NCBI RefSeq assembly: GCF_000183135.1 | Contig: NC_014734.1 | Coordinates: 2,046,001 to 2,110,000 of the forward strand | Direction: 5' to 3' | Origin: Paludibacter propionicigenes WB4 | Lineage (GTDB): Bacteria; Bacteroidota; Bacteroidia; Bacteroidales; Paludibacteraceae | DNA: 64,000 bases | In this document: positions 31,032-38,693 of the stretch, piece by piece | Layout of the letters: every line of letters begins with the position of its first letter | Numbering within the stretch: the first letter of the stretch is position 1 | Translations under genes and position numbers: made by a program | The notes under the pieces: model-generated | The model's input: only the letters and a program-made list of their open reading frames with translations | Databases searched by the model: none | What the model was told of the DNA's origin: nothing

Positions 31032-33110
31032 ATGAAAAACCTATTAAAAACAAGTATTATGGCAATAGCTGTTGTAGCAGCAAGCGGAGCTGCAAACGCC
31101 GAAACTCCTGTTATAGGAAAACAGCACCCAACTATAACAAACAGACTCATGACTCCTGAGGTTCTATGGTCGTTCGGTCGCGTAGGCGGAGTACAAATTT
31201 CTCCCGATAAAACCAAAGTTCTGTATAGCGTGTCCTATTACAGCATAACCGAGAACAAAGGAAATTCAGAGCTTTTTGTTATGAACACCGATGGTTCGGA
31301 CAAAAAACAAATTACCAAAACCGCCACTCGCGAAGCAGCAGCAAAATGGATGAAAGACGGCCAGCACATCGCTTTTTTATCGTCGGAAACCGGAAGCATG
31401 CAACTGTGGACGATGAAAGCCGATGGTAGCGAACGCAAACAAATAACCGACGTAAAAGATGGAATCAATGATTTCGCTTTATCGCCGGACGAAACAAAAC
31501 TTCTTTTTGTAGCCGATGTGAAGTACGGAGAAAGCACCGTAGATAAATACCCCGATCTGCCAAAATCGAGCGGTATAATCGTAACGGATTTAATGTACAA
31601 ACACTGGGACGAATGGACAAAAACCGTTCCACATCCTTTCGTGGCAGATATAAAAGAGGGCAAAATTGCAAATATTATTGACATATTAAACGGTGAACCC
31701 TATGAAAGTCCTATGAAACCCTTTGGTGGAATAGAACAACTTGCCTGGAGCCCCGATGGAAAAACCGTGGCCTACACTTGTAGAAAGAAAACCGGGAAAG
31801 AATATGCTCTTTCAACTAACTCCGATATCTACTTCTACACCCTGTCTACCGGCAAAACAGAGAATAAAACTCAAGGCATGATGGGATACGACCAGAATCC
31901 GACATTCTCGCCCGACGGCAAATGGCTGGCATGGGAAAGCATGGAACGGGATGGATACGAAGCGGATAAAAACCGTTTGTTTGTCATGAATCTGCAAACC
32001 GGCGAAAAGACCGATCTTTCAGCCAACTTCGATCAGAATTCGGGCTCACTGATTTGGACTCCCGACAGCAAATCCATTTATTTTGTAAGCTGCTGGCATG
32101 CTGTCACTCAGATTTACCGTGCAGATATAGCTTCAAAAAAGATAGTACAAATTACAAAAGGAGATCATGACTACTCCTTTGTGGCTCCGATAAAGGACAA
32201 ACTTATTGGCGTAAAACATTCGCTGAGCAAACCCGACGAAATTTATGCTATAAACCCAAAGACAGGAGTTGAAACAGAAATTTCATTTGAGAATAAAGAA
32301 ATTCTGTCTCAACTAGACATGGGAAAGGTAGAAGAACGCTGGATTACCACTACCGACAATAAACAAATGCTTACGTGGGTGGTTTATCCACCTAACTTCG
32401 ATAAGAATAAGAAATATCCAACATTGCTTTTCTGCGAAGGCGGACCACAATCGACAGTGAGCCAGTTTTGGTCGTATCGCTGGAACCTACAGCTCATGGC
32501 GGCCAACGGCTATATAGTAGTTGCACCTAACCGTCGCGGACTTCCAAGCTTTGGTAAAGAATGGCTGGAGCAAATTAGCGGTGATTATGGCGGTCAAAAT
32601 ATGAAAGATTATTTCTCAGCCATCGACGCATTGGCCAAAGAACCCTATGTAAATAAAGATAAGTTGGGTTGCGTAGGTGCAAGCTATGGTGGATTTTCGG
32701 TTTACTGGCTCGCAGGCCATCATGAAAAACGCTTCAAAGCTTTCTTGGCACACGATGGCATGTTCAACTTACCGCAACAATACCTTGAAACAGAAGAGAT
32801 GTGGTTTGTAAACTGGGATTTGGGTGGCGCATACTGGGACAAAGCAAATGCTATTGCACAGCGTTCGTACGCCAACTCTCCGCACTTGTTTGTGGACAAA
32901 TGGGACACTCCTATTTTAGTTATTCACGGCGAAAAAGATTACCGCATTCTGGCTTCACAAGGTATGGCAGCTTTCAATGCAGCTATATTGCGTGGTGTTC
33001 CGGCTGAGATGTTGATCTTCCCCGACGAAAATCACTGGGTACTACAACCTCAAAATGGTATTCTTTGGCAACGTACATTCTACTCGTGGCTGGATAAATG
33101 GTTGAAATAA
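31032..33110 (+). CDS. Secreted S9 prolyl-oligopeptidase family peptidase (dipeptidyl peptidase 5-like)
   Basis: A 692-residue exported serine exopeptidase. A Sec signal peptide (residues 1-24, ending ASGAANA) directs it to the periplasm. The N-terminal beta-propeller carries WD40-like TolB repeats such as ISPDKTKV, AWSPDGKTVAY and TFSPDGKWLAW. The C-terminal alpha/beta-hydrolase domain has the full triad: S551 in GASYGGFS, D636 in HGEKDYRI and H668 in DENHW. The arrangement matches DPP5-like enzymes of Bacteroidales, which release dipeptides from short peptides during amino-acid fermentation. The ATG at 31032 is preferred to a GTG two codons earlier. Monocistronic, ended by the hairpin at 33144-33175. 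Confidence 0.9.
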   Translation: MKNLLKTSIMAIAVVAASGAANAETPVIGKQHPTITNRLMTPEVLWSFGRVGGVQISPDKTKVLYSVSYYSITENKGNSELFVMNTDGSDKKQITKTATREAAAKWMKDGQHIAFLSSETGSMQLWTMKADGSERKQITDVKDGINDFALSPDETKLLFVADVKYGESTVDKYPDLPKSSGIIVTDLMYKHWDEWTKTVPHPFVADIKEGKIANIIDILNGEPYESPMKPFGGIEQLAWSPDGKTVAYTCRKKTGKEYALSTNSDIYFYTLSTGKTENKTQGMMGYDQNPTFSPDGKWLAWESMERDGYEADKNRLFVMNLQTGEKTDLSANFDQNSGSLIWTPDSKSIYFVSCWHAVTQIYRADIASKKIVQITKGDHDYSFVAPIKDKLIGVKHSLSKPDEIYAINPKTGVETEISFENKEILSQLDMGKVEERWITTTDNKQMLTWVVYPPNFDKNKKYPTLLFCEGGPQSTVSQFWSYRWNLQLMAANGYIVVAPNRRGLPSFGKEWLEQISGDYGGQNMKDYFSAIDALAKEPYVNKDKLGCVGASYGGFSVYWLAGHHEKRFKAFLAHDGMFNLPQQYLETEEMWFVNWDLGGAYWDKANAIAQRSYANSPHLFVDKWDTPILVIHGEKDYRILASQGMAAFNAAILRGVPAEMLIFPDENHWVLQPQNGILWQRTFYSWLDKWLK

Positions 33111-33143
33111 ACCAATATTCCCCGAATAAAAAGATTTATACTT

Positions 33144-33175
33144 CAAAGGGCTTTACATTATATGTGAAGCCCTTT
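33144..33175 (+). terminator. Hairpin after the S9 peptidase gene
   Basis: A 14-bp stem, CAAAGGGCTT...AAGCCCTTTG with one wobble, around a short TATA loop. There is no T-run, so it is a weak or Rho-assisted terminator. Confidence 0.6.
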
Positions 33176-33287
33176 GTGCATCAAAGCAAACTTCCAATTA
33201 GCTCTTACCGTAAAGCTAACTAAAATATCGCAACAGCTTAGTATATTAATCGGCATCAATTAATTCATTCGTAAGTATCAATTATAT

Positions 33288-33349
33288 TTATGCTGTACAG
33301 CTCAACAAAATATACTGTACAGCATAATAAGTTATACTGTACAGTATAA
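33288..33349. promoter_or_regulatory. Three CTGTACAG palindromes with exact 22-bp spacing
   Basis: CTGTACAG occurs at 33293-33300, 33315-33322 and 33337-33344, with centres exactly 22 bp apart. The third is inside the perfect 18-bp palindrome TTATACTGTACAGTATAA (33332-33349). The second copy shares TATACTGTACAG with the third as a direct repeat. The first and second also form a 13-bp inverted repeat (33288-33300 and 33315-33327). Two-turn phasing would put three bound dimers on one face of the helix. The regulator is unknown. Confidence 0.75.
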
Positions 33350-33573
33350 ATATCTATAGTCTACATATCAATCTTAAAGTAACTCAAAGACTCAGCTAAT
33401 CGATCAGTATACTTCAATTAATTCCTCGAAAGAAACGGAATAGATTATAGAAACTCCTACGGATTCCTAAAATGATTGAAATAAGAAACCTGCATTTATC
33501 TACAGAATTGTCTCCGAATTTGGGAAGAAAACAACATATAGGCATTCAATATAAATTTCTTGCCAGAATGTTG

Positions 33574-33581
33574 TAATTTTG
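33574..33581 (+). promoter_or_regulatory. -7 box for the ECF sigma factor operon
   Basis: TAATTTTG fits TAnnTTTG and lies 70 bases before the chosen sigma factor ATG. The -33 region is not convincing. An autoregulated ECF promoter could lie elsewhere. Confidence 0.4.
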
Positions 33582-33651
33582 GTGATTATTAAACTTTATA
33601 TTGAAAAGAGATGCAACAAAAACAACCTGGTTTGCATCATCAAAAAAGAAT

Positions 33652-34233
33652 ATGGAATTAAGGACTGCGATAACTGACGAACAACAATTGATTGCCGGAT
33701 GCAAAGCGGGTAAATCGTGGGCTCAAAAAAGGGTTTACGAATTACATGCTCCAGCCATGATGAGCGTTTGTGTGCGGTATGTAAACGATCGGGAAACGGC
33801 CCGCGACTTATTACAGGATGGTTTCATTAAGCTATTTACAAAGATAGATTCATATTCAGGAACAGGGTCATTCGGCGGTTGGATAAGACGAATCTTCGTC
33901 ACCACAGCATTGGAATATCTCAGGCAAAACGATGCATTGAAACAGAGTGAAAGTATTGAAGAATACAGCAATTATATTGAAAATAATGATGTCGGGGTAT
34001 TGGAAAAAATTTCAGTTGATGATTTAATGGCTTGCATTTCAGAATTATCAGACGGATATAGAATCATATTCAATTTATATGCTATCGAAGGTTATTCACA
34101 CGCCGAAATAGCGGAAATACTAAACATAGCTGAAGCCACCTCGCGATCGCAATTTATGAGAGCCCGAAGAATTCTTCAAAAAAACGTACAATCACTTATT
34201 GGACAAGATCATGCAAAACAATATAAACAATAA
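33652..34233 (+). CDS. ECF-family RNA polymerase sigma factor
   Basis: A 193-residue alternative sigma factor. Region 2 is seen in ARDLLQDGFIKLFTKIDSY (about residues 50-68) and the GSFGGWIRRIFVTTALEYLR block that melts the promoter. Region 4 is seen in LSDGYRIIFNLYAIEGYSHAEIAEIL and the recognition helix EATSRSQFMRARRIL. No region 1 or 3, so it belongs to the extracytoplasmic function class, activated on envelope signals. The ATG at 33652 is preferred because the longer frame begins with TTG and lacks family similarity. Its 3' end overlaps the next gene by 23 bases, the usual position of an anti-sigma or sensor gene. Confidence 0.92.
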   Translation: MELRTAITDEQQLIAGCKAGKSWAQKRVYELHAPAMMSVCVRYVNDRETARDLLQDGFIKLFTKIDSYSGTGSFGGWIRRIFVTTALEYLRQNDALKQSESIEEYSNYIENNDVGVLEKISVDDLMACISELSDGYRIIFNLYAIEGYSHAEIAEILNIAEATSRSQFMRARRILQKNVQSLIGQDHAKQYKQ

Positions 34234-35494
34234 CGAACAAGATGCTTTCAATGATATTTTCAGGCAAAAGCTTGAAAATCATCAGCTGCCCGTCGATGCC
34301 GAATGCTGGAACGAGATAGAAGCACGCCTGAACTCCAAGAAAAGAAGGATTATCCCGTTCTGGTTTTGGCTAACAACCGGGGGCACTGCCGTTGCCTTCC
34401 TGGCATTGCTGTTTACTTTGCGTTTGCCTTCCGCGTCTACTGACTTTGCCAGAGACTCTAAACAGATTAAAACCAAACAAATAAACGTACAAAATAAAAT
34501 TGCCGGCAAACAAGCGAGTCATTCTATTTCAACAAAAAAGTCCGCTGAGACGAACCACAAAAATTATCAGACATCTAAAAACAACAAAGTGGAAGATGTT
34601 GTAATTAAAGAACCAAACTTAACGGAAACTGCTACCAAAGAGAATATTAAGATCGAAAACAACGGTGCAAACGAACAACAGTTAGCTCAGGTAACAGACA
34701 ATCGGGAGGCTCCGGCAACAACGAATTCCGTATCTGCTCGTGATTCCGCAAAGAATAATTCTGATAATGTTTTCCAAGACAGATTACTGGCTAAAAACGC
34801 TGAAAGCGAAAAGCCTGCCAAAAAGCCAAAAAAGAAACAAGACCTGTTGCTGGCAGCTGCATTTAGCACCGGTGGAGGCATGAATTTTAGCGGGAACAAT
34901 GGTCTGGTATTTGACAATCCCATTGGAAAGTCATATTTGACGAATGGAATGACAGATTACAGCAACATACTGTCTCAACAGGATTTTTCAGAAAAAAACT
35001 ATATGGCTCCCGTTTCGTTTGGAATCATCGTACGGAAACAGCTAAACAAGGCTATCGGCATTGAGAGTGGACTTGTGTACACTTACTTACTGTCAACATT
35101 TTCTAATTCCGGCATGCAACATCCTGACGCTAAATTGCATCTTCATTATGTAGGCGTTCCTATCAACTTTGTGGGTCTGCTTTGGGATAACCCAACATGG
35201 GAGATCTACTTATCAGGGGGTGGTATGGTGGAAAAAGGAATTCAATCGGTTTATAGTCAGAACCAGTATTCCGGCAACAGGATAATCACTACCATTGCCA
35301 AAACCAATATCAATGGTCTTCAATGGTCGGTAAACGGAGCAATCGGAGTAACGTATAAGGTGCAACGAAACTGGGGAATATATTTCGAACCCAAGCTCTC
35401 TTATTTCTTCGACAATAATCAACCCGCCAGCGCCCGAACCGAAGACCCTGTAGTAATAGGAATATCGGCAGGAGTAAGATTTAGAATCAAATAA
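34211..35494 (+). CDS. Inner-membrane-anchored protein with C-terminal outer-membrane beta-barrel (putative anti-sigma/sensor)
   Basis: A 427-residue protein with an odd layout. Residues 1-40 are cytoplasmic and resemble the short segment (DAECWNEIEARL) found at the start of Bacteroidetes proteins paired with ECF factors. One transmembrane helix is at about 45-66. A charged, Lys/Asn/Glu-rich linker runs to about 215. The last 210 residues are a PorT-like beta-barrel with alternating hydrophobic strands, GxSxGxxY-type turns and a C-terminal aromatic/Arg end. If all parts fold as predicted, one chain would span inner membrane, periplasm and outer membrane. The start is the ATG at 34211, overlapping the sigma gene. 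Binding to the sigma factor is inferred from position only. Confidence 0.75.
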   Translation: MQNNINNNEQDAFNDIFRQKLENHQLPVDAECWNEIEARLNSKKRRIIPFWFWLTTGGTAVAFLALLFTLRLPSASTDFARDSKQIKTKQINVQNKIAGKQASHSISTKKSAETNHKNYQTSKNNKVEDVVIKEPNLTETATKENIKIENNGANEQQLAQVTDNREAPATTNSVSARDSAKNNSDNVFQDRLLAKNAESEKPAKKPKKKQDLLLAAAFSTGGGMNFSGNNGLVFDNPIGKSYLTNGMTDYSNILSQQDFSEKNYMAPVSFGIIVRKQLNKAIGIESGLVYTYLLSTFSNSGMQHPDAKLHLHYVGVPINFVGLLWDNPTWEIYLSGGGMVEKGIQSVYSQNQYSGNRIITTIAKTNINGLQWSVNGAIGVTYKVQRNWGIYFEPKLSYFFDNNQPASARTEDPVVIGISAGVRFRIK

Positions 35495-35509: not shown

Positions 35510-36751
35510 ATGAGAAAGTATTTATCAGTATTTGCACTTGCTATCCTAATGGCGAGCTGCAGCAATCAGAATGATCCGACAATAAAGGTTCCGACCGATG
35601 CTAAACCGATAATATTGAAGGCCGGCTGGGAAAAACGAATAAATCAGGACAATGAATTCGCTTTTGATTTACTAAAGCAAACCATTCAAAGTTCGGGTGA
35701 GACAAACGTATTCGTATCTCCGTTGAGCGTCAGCATTGCGCTAGGAATGGCATGGAACGGCGCCAATGGACAAACAAAGACCGAAATGGAAACGGCTTTG
35801 AAATTGAGTGGAATGTCAATTGCCGATATCAATGATTACTATAAAACAATGCAATCCACCCTCCCGTCAATTGATCCGACAACCAAATTGAGTATTGCTA
35901 ATTCGTTGTGGTATCGCTCAGGATTTCCTGTAAAATCTGACTTCTTAAAAGTAAACACCGATTACTTCGGATCTTATATCAAAGAATTGGATTTCAGTCA
36001 AAGCTGGGCTGTGGATACTGTAAATAACTGGTGCGCAAAGAAAACAAACAATCTGATAAAGAAACCGCTTGACATGATTCCACCGGATGCCATGATGTAT
36101 CTTGTAAACGCCATATATTTTAAAGGAATCTGGAGAAAACATTTTGAAACAAAAAATACAACGGAAGCCAACTTCACCAACGAACTGGGGAAAGCAGTAA
36201 AAGTCAATATGATGTATCAGAAAGACACCTTTTCTTATGCGCAAGACAGCTATGCTCAATATCTTGATATGCCGTATGGAAATAAAGCTTTCAGCATGAC
36301 AGTAGTATTACCTAACGAAGGAAAAACAACCGGAGAAGTATTGGACTACATGAAAACAACCGGGTGGGACAACACGCTTAAAGGTTTCTTTACAAGTCAA
36401 GTGGATGTTTATTTACCCCGATTCAAAACTCAAAACAAGTTTATACTCAACGATCCACTGAAAAATATGGGAATGAATCTGGCATTTAATGAATTTGCCG
36501 ACTTCAGGGATATCGCCAATACTCCATTGATGATCTCGAGGGTAATTCACGACACTTATGTAGAAGTGACAGAAGAAGGTACTGAAGCTGCCGCAGTAAC
36601 TATAGTTGAATTTGGAAACACCTCAGTCGGACCTCAACCTCTCCCTACTCCAATCTTCAAAGTCAACAGGCCTTTTATATTCGTAATTCGGGAGCAAAGT
36701 ACTGGTGTCATTCTCTTTATCGGAAAAATGGGAAATGTTGATAAGTTTTGA
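35510..36751 (+). CDS. Lipoprotein serpin (serine/cysteine protease inhibitor)
   Basis: A 413-residue serpin with a lipoprotein signal peptide (lipobox MASC, C17), so it is anchored in the envelope, like the miropin of Tannerella. Serpin core signatures are visible: NVFVSPLSVSIALGMAWNGA near residues 65-84, NAIYFKGIW, and the C-terminal FKVNRPFIFVIRE. The hinge EEGTEAAAV (about residues 353-361) has the small residues needed for loop insertion, so it should inhibit and not merely fold like a serpin. By the usual count the P1-P1' bond is about the T-S of EFGNTSVG, but the register is uncertain. Bacterial serpins are rare. It is 15 bases after the barrel protein. Confidence 0.94.
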   Translation: MRKYLSVFALAILMASCSNQNDPTIKVPTDAKPIILKAGWEKRINQDNEFAFDLLKQTIQSSGETNVFVSPLSVSIALGMAWNGANGQTKTEMETALKLSGMSIADINDYYKTMQSTLPSIDPTTKLSIANSLWYRSGFPVKSDFLKVNTDYFGSYIKELDFSQSWAVDTVNNWCAKKTNNLIKKPLDMIPPDAMMYLVNAIYFKGIWRKHFETKNTTEANFTNELGKAVKVNMMYQKDTFSYAQDSYAQYLDMPYGNKAFSMTVVLPNEGKTTGEVLDYMKTTGWDNTLKGFFTSQVDVYLPRFKTQNKFILNDPLKNMGMNLAFNEFADFRDIANTPLMISRVIHDTYVEVTEEGTEAAAVTIVEFGNTSVGPQPLPTPIFKVNRPFIFVIREQSTGVILFIGKMGNVDKF

Positions 36752-37424: not shown

Positions 37425-38693
37425 ATGAAAAGAACTATGTTTTTTATCAGCCTTGCTGTTCTACTTTTGAGCAGTTGCGAATCGGTAGTAACAGAAACTG
37501 TTACCTACAAAATCAACGAGCCTGTTTTTATGTCGACCGAAGTATTTCGTAATTCGGTAAAAGTAACTTCTAAGCAACACGCCATTAGTGGTATTGGCAA
37601 AATGTGTTTCTACAACGATTACCTGTACATTTCCGAACCGGAAAAAGGGATTCACATTATTGACAATCGCGACCCTTCGAGCCCCAGAGTAGCGGGCTTT
37701 ATAGAGCTATTGGGGAATGCCGACTTAGCCATTCGCGACAACAAGCTATACGCCGATTCGTATATCGATTTGGTTTGGTTTGATATAAGCAATCCACTAT
37801 TGCCGGAACTAAAAGGAAGATTGGATTCAATATTTCCAACAGCACTGCCATCGACGCAAAACCAATATGGAATTGATTATCAACAGACTTATGCCGGTAA
37901 AAGCAAGGGCATTGTAGTTGGCTGGAAAGTAAAAGAAAGAACCGAAAATGTATCGCACTATACCGGCGGTTGGTATGGTGGAGTTACCTATGATTTTGCT
38001 ACTTTAAACAGCACAGCACCTACCGGCAGTAAAAGCACAGGTATAAACGGCTCCATGTCGCGTTTCAGTATTTACAACGATTATTTATATTCAGTTATCA
38101 ATAACTATATGAATATATTCGACTTAAGTGCTGCCAAACCAACCAAAGCCGCTCCGGATTTTTACATAGGACGCAGTGTGGAAACTATTTTCAGCTATAA
38201 GGACTATATGTATATGGGAACACCTAGCGGTATGCTAATCTATTCGGTAAAGAATCCTCTAAAACCGGAATTTCAATCATCGTTGACGCATGCCTACGGT
38301 TGCGATCCTGTAGTTGTTGAAAATGATTTAGCGTATGTGACAGTTCATTCGGGCAACCTATGTGGACAAAACACCAACGAATTATTCATTGTGGATGTAA
38401 GTAACCCCAAAAGCCCAAAACAACTTGTATCATACACTATGACTAATCCTAAAGGCCTTGGTATCGACAATGGAAAATTATTCTTGTGCGATGATGGGTT
38501 GAAAATATTCAACAACAGCAATCCGCAAACCCTCTTGGCTAACCAACTTGCTCATTTTAAGAACATAAACGGATATGATATCATTGCTCACAACAACATA
38601 GCCATGATGATTGCCGAAGACGGCATTTATCAGTACGATTATTCTGATTTAAATAATATCAAATTGTTGAGCAAATTACCGATAGTTAAGTAA
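37425..38693 (+). CDS. LVIVD-repeat beta-propeller lipoprotein
   Basis: A 422-residue lipoprotein (lipobox LSSC, C18). The mature part holds several LVIVD-type repeats, each with a phrase such as GIHIIDNRDPSSPRVAG, LVWFDISNPLLPEL, MLIYSVKNPLKPEF and LFIVDVSNPKSPKQL. These fold as blades of a propeller used for binding partners or carbohydrates on the cell surface. It is the last gene of the sigma factor-serpin group and is followed by a bidirectional terminator at 38728-38762. No enzymatic motif is visible. A partner for the serpin or the barrels is a guess from position. Confidence 0.85.
   Translation: MKRTMFFISLAVLLLSSCESVVTETVTYKINEPVFMSTEVFRNSVKVTSKQHAISGIGKMCFYNDYLYISEPEKGIHIIDNRDPSSPRVAGFIELLGNADLAIRDNKLYADSYIDLVWFDISNPLLPELKGRLDSIFPTALPSTQNQYGIDYQQTYAGKSKGIVVGWKVKERTENVSHYTGGWYGGVTYDFATLNSTAPTGSKSTGINGSMSRFSIYNDYLYSVINNYMNIFDLSAAKPTKAAPDFYIGRSVETIFSYKDYMYMGTPSGMLIYSVKNPLKPEFQSSLTHAYGCDPVVVENDLAYVTVHSGNLCGQNTNELFIVDVSNPKSPKQLVSYTMTNPKGLGIDNGKLFLCDDGLKIFNNSNPQTLLANQLAHFKNINGYDIIAHNNIAMMIAEDGIYQYDYSDLNNIKLLSKLPIVK

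Follow-up and report, generated by a model that had tools for sequence, protein, structure and literature searches.

A phased palindrome array ahead of a sigma/serpin locus in Paludibacter propionicigenes and its probable link to a distant HU-HIG gene

The 64-kb stretch of the P. propionicigenes genome analyzed here (the window) carries a short run of identical palindromes ahead of an ECF sigma factor and serpin locus, and the question it raises is what reads these palindromes and to what end. The palindrome CTGTACAG occurs at positions 33293, 33315 and 33337 and nowhere else in the window, with the centre-to-centre step of exactly 22 bp that a sequence-only reading of this DNA had described. 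The sites, to which no strand is assigned, are TGCTGTACAGCT (33291..33302), TACTGTACAGCA (33313..33324, 22 bp after the first) and TACTGTACAGTA (33335..33346, 22 bp after the second). The perfect 18-bp palindrome reported around the third copy can be read directly at 33332-33349, and the perfect 13-bp inverted repeat formed by the first two copies was found at 33288-33300 paired with 33315-33327. Three copies are indeed exact, but the reading had missed a decayed fourth, TAGTCTACATAT (33357..33368, no strand), which lies in register with the others. It had also equated the spacing with two helical turns, which 22 bp slightly exceeds. Alignment of 29 copies of CTGTACAG-type sites gave an extended palindrome of about 20 bp, so that neighbouring sites nearly abut.

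Three or more CTGTACAG copies anywhere in the sequence were found in 3 of 100 dinucleotide shuffles of the window. The whole genome, a single contig of 3,685,504 bp, contained 46 copies versus 15 for the reversed control, and from 46 copies in this length about 7e-9 triplets with 22-22 spacing would be expected by chance genome-wide. When the 46 copies were compared with mechanically called ORFs of at least 80 aa, 39 were inside; those outside were six array copies and a single site (L023). Pairs of CTGTACAG 10-18 bp apart were present at two loci genome-wide, the window array and positions 930296-930347, where three exact copies at 22 bp are joined by one degenerate copy. A palindrome-array detector applied to 2,006 sliding 300-bp windows of the genome scored above 30 solely at these two arrays, with AT-rich places (L013 and L018) reaching 30. 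As the genome holds only two arrays, the second of them beside an HU-HIG gene, a dispersed REP-like repeat was rejected, and with it the scattered repetitive element that the sequence-only reading had named as an outcome against its proposal.

The second array is 1.15 Mb from the window array and is followed, after about 90 bp, by an HU-HIG gene coding for 132 aa (G000:C1:930438-930836); of the arrays compared, this one is what the window array resembles most. The HU-HIG protein family was reportedly described by Burroughs and colleagues in 2017; the product of this gene matched PF18291 at 5.1e-22 with 78.7 bits (cut-off 26.2) over residues 1-127 of 132, which places it within the Pfam family. 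The other strong HU-HIG gene of this genome (L112) had no array at threshold. The link was out of sight of the sequence-only reading. It would turn the window array from an element of the local promoter into one of the sites at which an HU-HIG protein acts in trans. Close to the HU-HIG locus stands a group of genes that we read as hydroxylamine reductase, ferredoxin, cupin and Crp-like (L020:10742-14664), and this group is partly retained beside the same HU-HIG in three other genomes. The Crp-like gene was rejected as the array binder, as it is common to four loci only.

The first gene after the window array encodes the ECF sigma factor (33652..34233, + strand; Pfam Sigma70_r2 and r4_2). On the same strand there follow a gene for a protein with an outer-membrane beta-barrel-like C-terminus (34199..35494; OMP_b-brl match just below cut-off), whose position we read as anti-sigma-like, a serpin gene (35510..36751; Pfam Serpin 2.3e-107) and an LVIVD-repeat protein gene (37425..38693), which belongs to the same cluster in genome G033 as well. 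The gene-free stretch around the array, previously given as 420 bases, really spans about 490-540 bp depending on the choice of sigma start codon. The Bacteroidetes -7 box has the consensus TAnnTTTG, and by eye the likely -7 box of the sigma gene is TAATTTTG (33574..33581, + strand). It had been called the only visible one, which needs the qualification that a weaker look-alike, TATATTTA (33283..33290, + strand), abuts the array and can equally be read as a -7 box or as the outer arm of the extended palindrome, which it overlaps. TAnnTTTG was found 8 bp, or 8 bp plus a multiple of 22 bp, ahead of the array and in the same register in all five CTGTACAG-type HU-HIG upstream regions. As its TTTG overlaps the palindrome arm, the -7 box was dropped as an independent part of the array.

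Conservation of the array at orthologous sigma loci, which the sequence-only reading had proposed to look for, was not observed at most of them. From 39 sigma matches, 30 were fetched and 28 scored, and 2 of the 28 were positive, the P. propionicigenes locus included. Genome G032 has both the HU-HIG and the sigma gene and no array at the sigma locus, the contig of G044 stops 2 bp ahead of its sigma match, and the sigma/serpin locus of G033 carries an array of a different motif, TATATA. The two outcomes that had been named as refuting, non-conservation and a scattered repeat, do not settle the question. GC skew across the window gave no clear replication switch point and was uninformative.

We then compared relatives within the genus. 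The exact two-site CTGTACAG pattern was confined to P. propionicigenes among 48 same-genus genomes, yet a CTGTACAG-like 22-bp array lay upstream of each of the four close HU-HIG orthologues found in the genus (68-74% identity), the arrays of G038 and G033 being partly degenerate. More distant relatives had other palindromes, namely GCATATATATGC or GGTATATACC types and AGATGTACATCT, all at 23 bp, and ATGCGCAT at 22 bp. Seven array sequences of the CTGTACAG type, that of the window among them, went into a profile (R1), which matched strongly in 5 of the 48 genomes, exactly those with a CTGTACAG-type HU-HIG. The places matched were each HU-HIG gene, the window array and two new arrays, G032:C27 (6.5e-12) and G038:C375 (3e-7), which makes one strong place beyond the HU-HIG gene in three of the five genomes. 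A weak reverse-strand match of R1 (3.7e-4) also spans the fourth site in the window. The best R1 match outside the five genomes was 7.3e-4, and across 295 genomes of the order, P. propionicigenes alone was found at 1e-4 under strict filters with 17 candidates scored per genome. Profiles of two other motifs, R2 and R3, each gave one extra strong array outside their training sets, in G041 (3.9e-18) and G025 (1.2e-11) respectively, and the matching HU-HIG was present in both genomes. Weak matches of R1 (G045:C61, 7.3e-4; G012:C108, 0.0017; and weaker), R2 (G034:C46, 4.2e-4) and R3 (G036:C293, 2.1e-4; G020:C176, 9.6e-4) were taken as chance.

For the wider survey, PF18291 was searched in 119 genomes of the order, 16 of which were positive at 1e-14, some with 13-18 copies (13-18 HU-HIG paralogues per genome in G070, G077 and G106). 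Both flanks were scored for 105 genes, 39 from the genus and 66 from the order, after exact duplicates and genes with a flank shorter than 250 bp had been left out; each near-identical paralogue was counted on its own. The genus genes were matches of at least 58 bits (45 genes, 39 kept), the weaker, ordinary-HU-like ones being left out, and 11 of the 91 listed order matches were not among the genes taken. At a threshold of 0/200 shuffles and z of at least 3.2, an array adjoined 55 of the 105 genes (30 upstream, 24 downstream, 1 both) and 50 had none, while 3 of 273 control windows, taken from the P. propionicigenes genome only and held to 0/100 shuffles and the same z, were positive, all with period 21. 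The filter on length and duplicates dropped further array-bearing genes, for example L269, L270, L294 and L307 (upstream) and L282 (downstream), and L345 fell under the length limit; some array-negative genes, such as L055 and L250, were positive under a looser cut. Periods of 20-25 bp were allowed, and the 56 arrays had periods of 21 bp (6), 22 bp (39) or 23 bp (11), with none at 20, 24 or 25. The typical array consists of about four palindromes, nearly always 22-23 bp apart, beside about half of the scored HU-HIG genes.

A scan with periods of 14-34 was positive in 28 of 110 upstream regions versus 14 of 223 control windows. Downstream arrays were discovered because 11 of these 14 control windows sat just downstream of an HU-HIG gene (two on one array); the 105-gene survey with its 273 windows is the cleaner control. 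The upstream layout expected for autoregulation was seen in P. propionicigenes and 30 other cases, one of which also had a downstream array, and the array was downstream only in 24 genes, in some facing a convergent gene (for example L106, L242 and L245). On a tree of 104 HU-HIG rows array position was clustered, with 30 changes versus 45.6 in shuffles (0/200 as low) and several switches. Close paralogues in one genome can differ in motif, as with TACCTTAAGGTA and TTTAGTACTAAA in G077, where several HU-HIG genes also lie within 1 kb of a contig end, a hint of adjacent repeats. Some single arrays were unusual. At two loci of G025 (L141 and L142), AGWTGCCCAWCT copies 3' of the HU-HIG genes continue, without loss of register, into a tandem set of AAGTCCTGTTYT-like copies, and these make up the array beside the paralogue in G022 (L143). 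At L257 (G127:C18) an ORF with what we read as a Cas9-like start follows the downstream array, ACCACNNGTGGT, at about 400 bp, and the HU-HIG upstream region at L263 (G058:C155) has a 34-bp period with two exact and one weak copy of ACACGTACGTGT, outside the 21-23 bp rule.

With respect to the protein that reads the arrays, motif distance tracked HU-HIG protein distance, although modestly (Mantel r 0.37, 0/9,999 permutations, 23 hand-chosen arrays). Mean motif distance was 0.46 for eight same-genome pairs with different HU-HIG, versus 0.37 for 110 different-genome pairs sharing more than 40% identity and 0.44 for the 135 less similar pairs; the registers of the motifs in this comparison were assigned automatically, with L148 scored out of register. 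The three HU-HIG genes of genome G033 each have a motif of their own, and the array at that genome's sigma locus is nearest to the TATATA type (distance 0.07 versus 0.45 and 0.50), whose HU-HIG gene is apparently split across two contigs. An AlphaFold model of the G044 orthologue (74% identical) showed an HU core with an extra N-terminal beta hairpin (pLDDT 87.7, pTM 0.70), and Foldseek returned 4fmr (BVU_2165, Bacteroides vulgatus) as the best match followed by many HU/IHF chains, in agreement with an HU fold. A symmetric HU-HIG dimer covering about 20 bp would fit sites every 22-23 bp. From linkage and co-variation we infer that HU-HIG is the probable binder. In line with the sequence-only reading, which knew of no Bacteroidetes regulator with this site, none was found in the open-licence literature searched.

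Five extra arrays other than that of the window were located away from HU-HIG genes, with strong extra copies numbering at most one per motif and genome. Ahead of the sigma/serpin locus they occur in P. propionicigenes and, with the TATATA motif, in G033. The G032 array lies between convergent glyS and EF-G-like genes, that of G038 lies 110-190 bp ahead of an MFS/amylase operon, and that of G041 (C150) precedes both a secreted endonuclease I gene, by about 260-350 bp, and a divergent type III modification gene. The G025 array (C13) is flanked by a sulfatase gene and, about 450-530 bp further on, by a gene for an exported protein; this array rests on R3 and reading of the sequence, as the detector picked another place (score 27) in that slice. 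Except where Pfam was run, gene names at these arrays are readings of translations. The G041 array (L234), of the AGATGTACATCT type, separates a type III restriction-modification gene pair from the endonuclease gene.

Taken together, we consider it fairly probable that the window array is a second, distant site array of the P. propionicigenes HU-HIG protein, whose dimers would tile the palindromes and control the sigma/serpin locus. HU-HIG homodimers, each reading a palindrome of about 20 bp, would line up next to one another every 22-23 bp and form a bent nucleoprotein block of 90 bp. At the HU-HIG gene the block may control its own expression or mark the locus; in the window it may control the sigma/serpin locus through a change to a promoter at the block edge, through a DNA loop to the HU-HIG array or as the seed of a silent domain. 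Upstream arrays at a promoter suggest autoregulation. The downstream class and the convergent placements mean that autoregulation is not the whole story, and the array may mark a block affecting neighbours on either side. Control of the sigma/serpin locus by HU-HIG made elsewhere would be the most likely role of the window array. Against this explanation stand the 50 of 105 HU-HIG genes without an array at threshold, L112 of P. propionicigenes, the scarcity of arrays among the scored sigma orthologues, the modest Mantel correlation, draft genomes hiding copies, and G169, where a related HU-HIG with an upstream TGTACAG-like array gave no R1 match at 1e-4.

Other binders were weighed against this. 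The sequence-only reading had offered cooperative binding of a dimeric regulator or three RNA hairpins; the dimeric DNA-binding regulator, with several sites in register, was retained and the hairpins were rejected. Perfect palindromes are able to pair, but over the 40 arrays tested of 56 complementarity was 0.751 within copies and 0.767 between copies; as pairing within a copy is no higher than across copies, half-sites vary independently, as they would for a protein dimer on DNA. In many motifs the complementarity moreover runs right across the centre, leaving none of the unpaired bases that a hairpin loop requires, and Rfam gave nothing near cut-offs over 33000-33700, so that action as hairpins in a transcript or small RNA appears extremely unlikely. 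A different, unlinked regulator could bind the arrays and control both the HU-HIG genes and the sigma locus, given that HU-HIG is connected to them by linkage and co-variation only. We regard this as highly improbable, since several motifs coexist in one genome, each beside its own HU-HIG type (G033, G020, G038 and G044), many arrays are downstream of the HU-HIG gene, and HU-HIG, with a frame antisense to it, was the sole gene common to all 14 loci compared in this clade (flanks up to 5 kb where the contig allowed). A LexA/SOS operator was likewise rejected, as the array site fits neither of the Bacteroidetes SOS repressor motifs, GGA-N5-TCC and CTAA-N5-TTAG, given in the excerpted text of PMC8565304.

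Granting HU-HIG as the binder, the sites could serve chromosome structure or segregation, as a centromere-like or domain-boundary mark, in place of transcription control; this overlaps with the preferred explanation as to binder, and the two likelihoods are not exclusive. In its favour, arrays were seen both 5' (30 genes with upstream arrays alone) and 3' (24 with downstream arrays alone), some of them between convergent genes, and no motif had more than one extra strong copy in a genome; the downstream arrays and the G032 placement do not fit a simple promoter operator. Gene control is better suited by the sigma/serpin locus having an array in two species with different motifs and by three other extra arrays lying about 110-530 bp ahead of transporter or exported-protein genes, and the window GC skew has no clear switch point; we judge a purely structural role unlikely. 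Because many arrays are downstream of the gene, a transcription operator and a nucleoid-structuring site both stand. The window array might also be a functionless relic, a former HU-HIG locus or a stray copy idle at the sigma gene, as most scored sigma orthologues lack an array and extra arrays occur at unrelated places in different species. This seems improbable: after long neglect three 8-bp cores would not be expected to be still intact and in register, the corresponding locus in G033 bears an array of another motif, and no trace of an HU-HIG gene came up around the six extra arrays in tblastn with genus HU-HIG sequences (E up to 0.05), on which ground that origin for them was rejected.

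Returning to the preferred explanation, in which HU-HIG binds the arrays, its sequence evidence points to an unrecognised family of sequence-reading, DNA-organising proteins. Tentatively, and with some doubt, HU-HIG may be a nucleoid family in which each member has a private array of about four 22-23-bp palindromes, distinct motifs coexisting in a genome, and in which dimers tile the array into a nucleosome-like block marking their own and one or a few distant loci such as sigma/serpin. While HU is the textbook case of non-specific DNA packaging, a large Bacteroidales branch of its fold appears tied to private, precisely spaced and variously spelled arrays. If binding is confirmed, the arrays would provide matched protein-site pairs for learning how the HU fold reads sequence, a function for the HU-HIG family, for which we found none published, and a set of orthogonal parts for organising DNA over long range; the sigma/serpin locus of P. 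propionicigenes is predicted to be under HU-HIG control.

Among known systems the closest is the HU-HIG family itself (PF18291, 4fmr), which the linked product matches in Pfam and the G044 model in structure; the open-licence literature searched gave no description of a binding site or adjacent array for HU-HIG, and nothing on such arrays for HU. The DNA-bending DNABII proteins IHF, HU and Hbb share the fold of the HU-HIG model. They are dimeric, with a footprint compatible with about 20 bp per dimer, and several of the matched PDB entries carry, by title, 19-20 bp DNA. An IHF site stands alone and lacks symmetry, and HU binds mostly without sequence preference, whereas HU-HIG-linked sites are symmetric, repeated at fixed spacing and different in each clade. 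In the lambda CI operators OR and OL, palindromic sites come in two separate groups of three or four, spaced by about two turns, and one group is next to the regulator's gene; likewise one of two palindrome clusters here adjoins the gene of the candidate regulator. The protein folds are unrelated, however, the distance between the HU-HIG clusters is 1.15 Mb, and the array of other members can be downstream of the gene. ParB/parS, plasmid iterons and RAYT/REP each have a gene with its own repeated palindromic DNA alongside and few copies elsewhere, as HU-HIG does, but HU-HIG has no constant partition, replication or transposase partner and is the only gene that the loci compared have in common. 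Finally, an HU protein of the Bacteroidales, P. gingivalis PG0121, is linked to inverted-repeat DNA close to genes under its influence, the 77-bp inverted repeat of the capsule operon, in an excerpted source whose introduction gives the sequence-specificity of its binding as unknown (PMC3969353); there a single long inverted repeat is involved (PMC3969353, excerpted text), in contrast to the phased array of HU-HIG.
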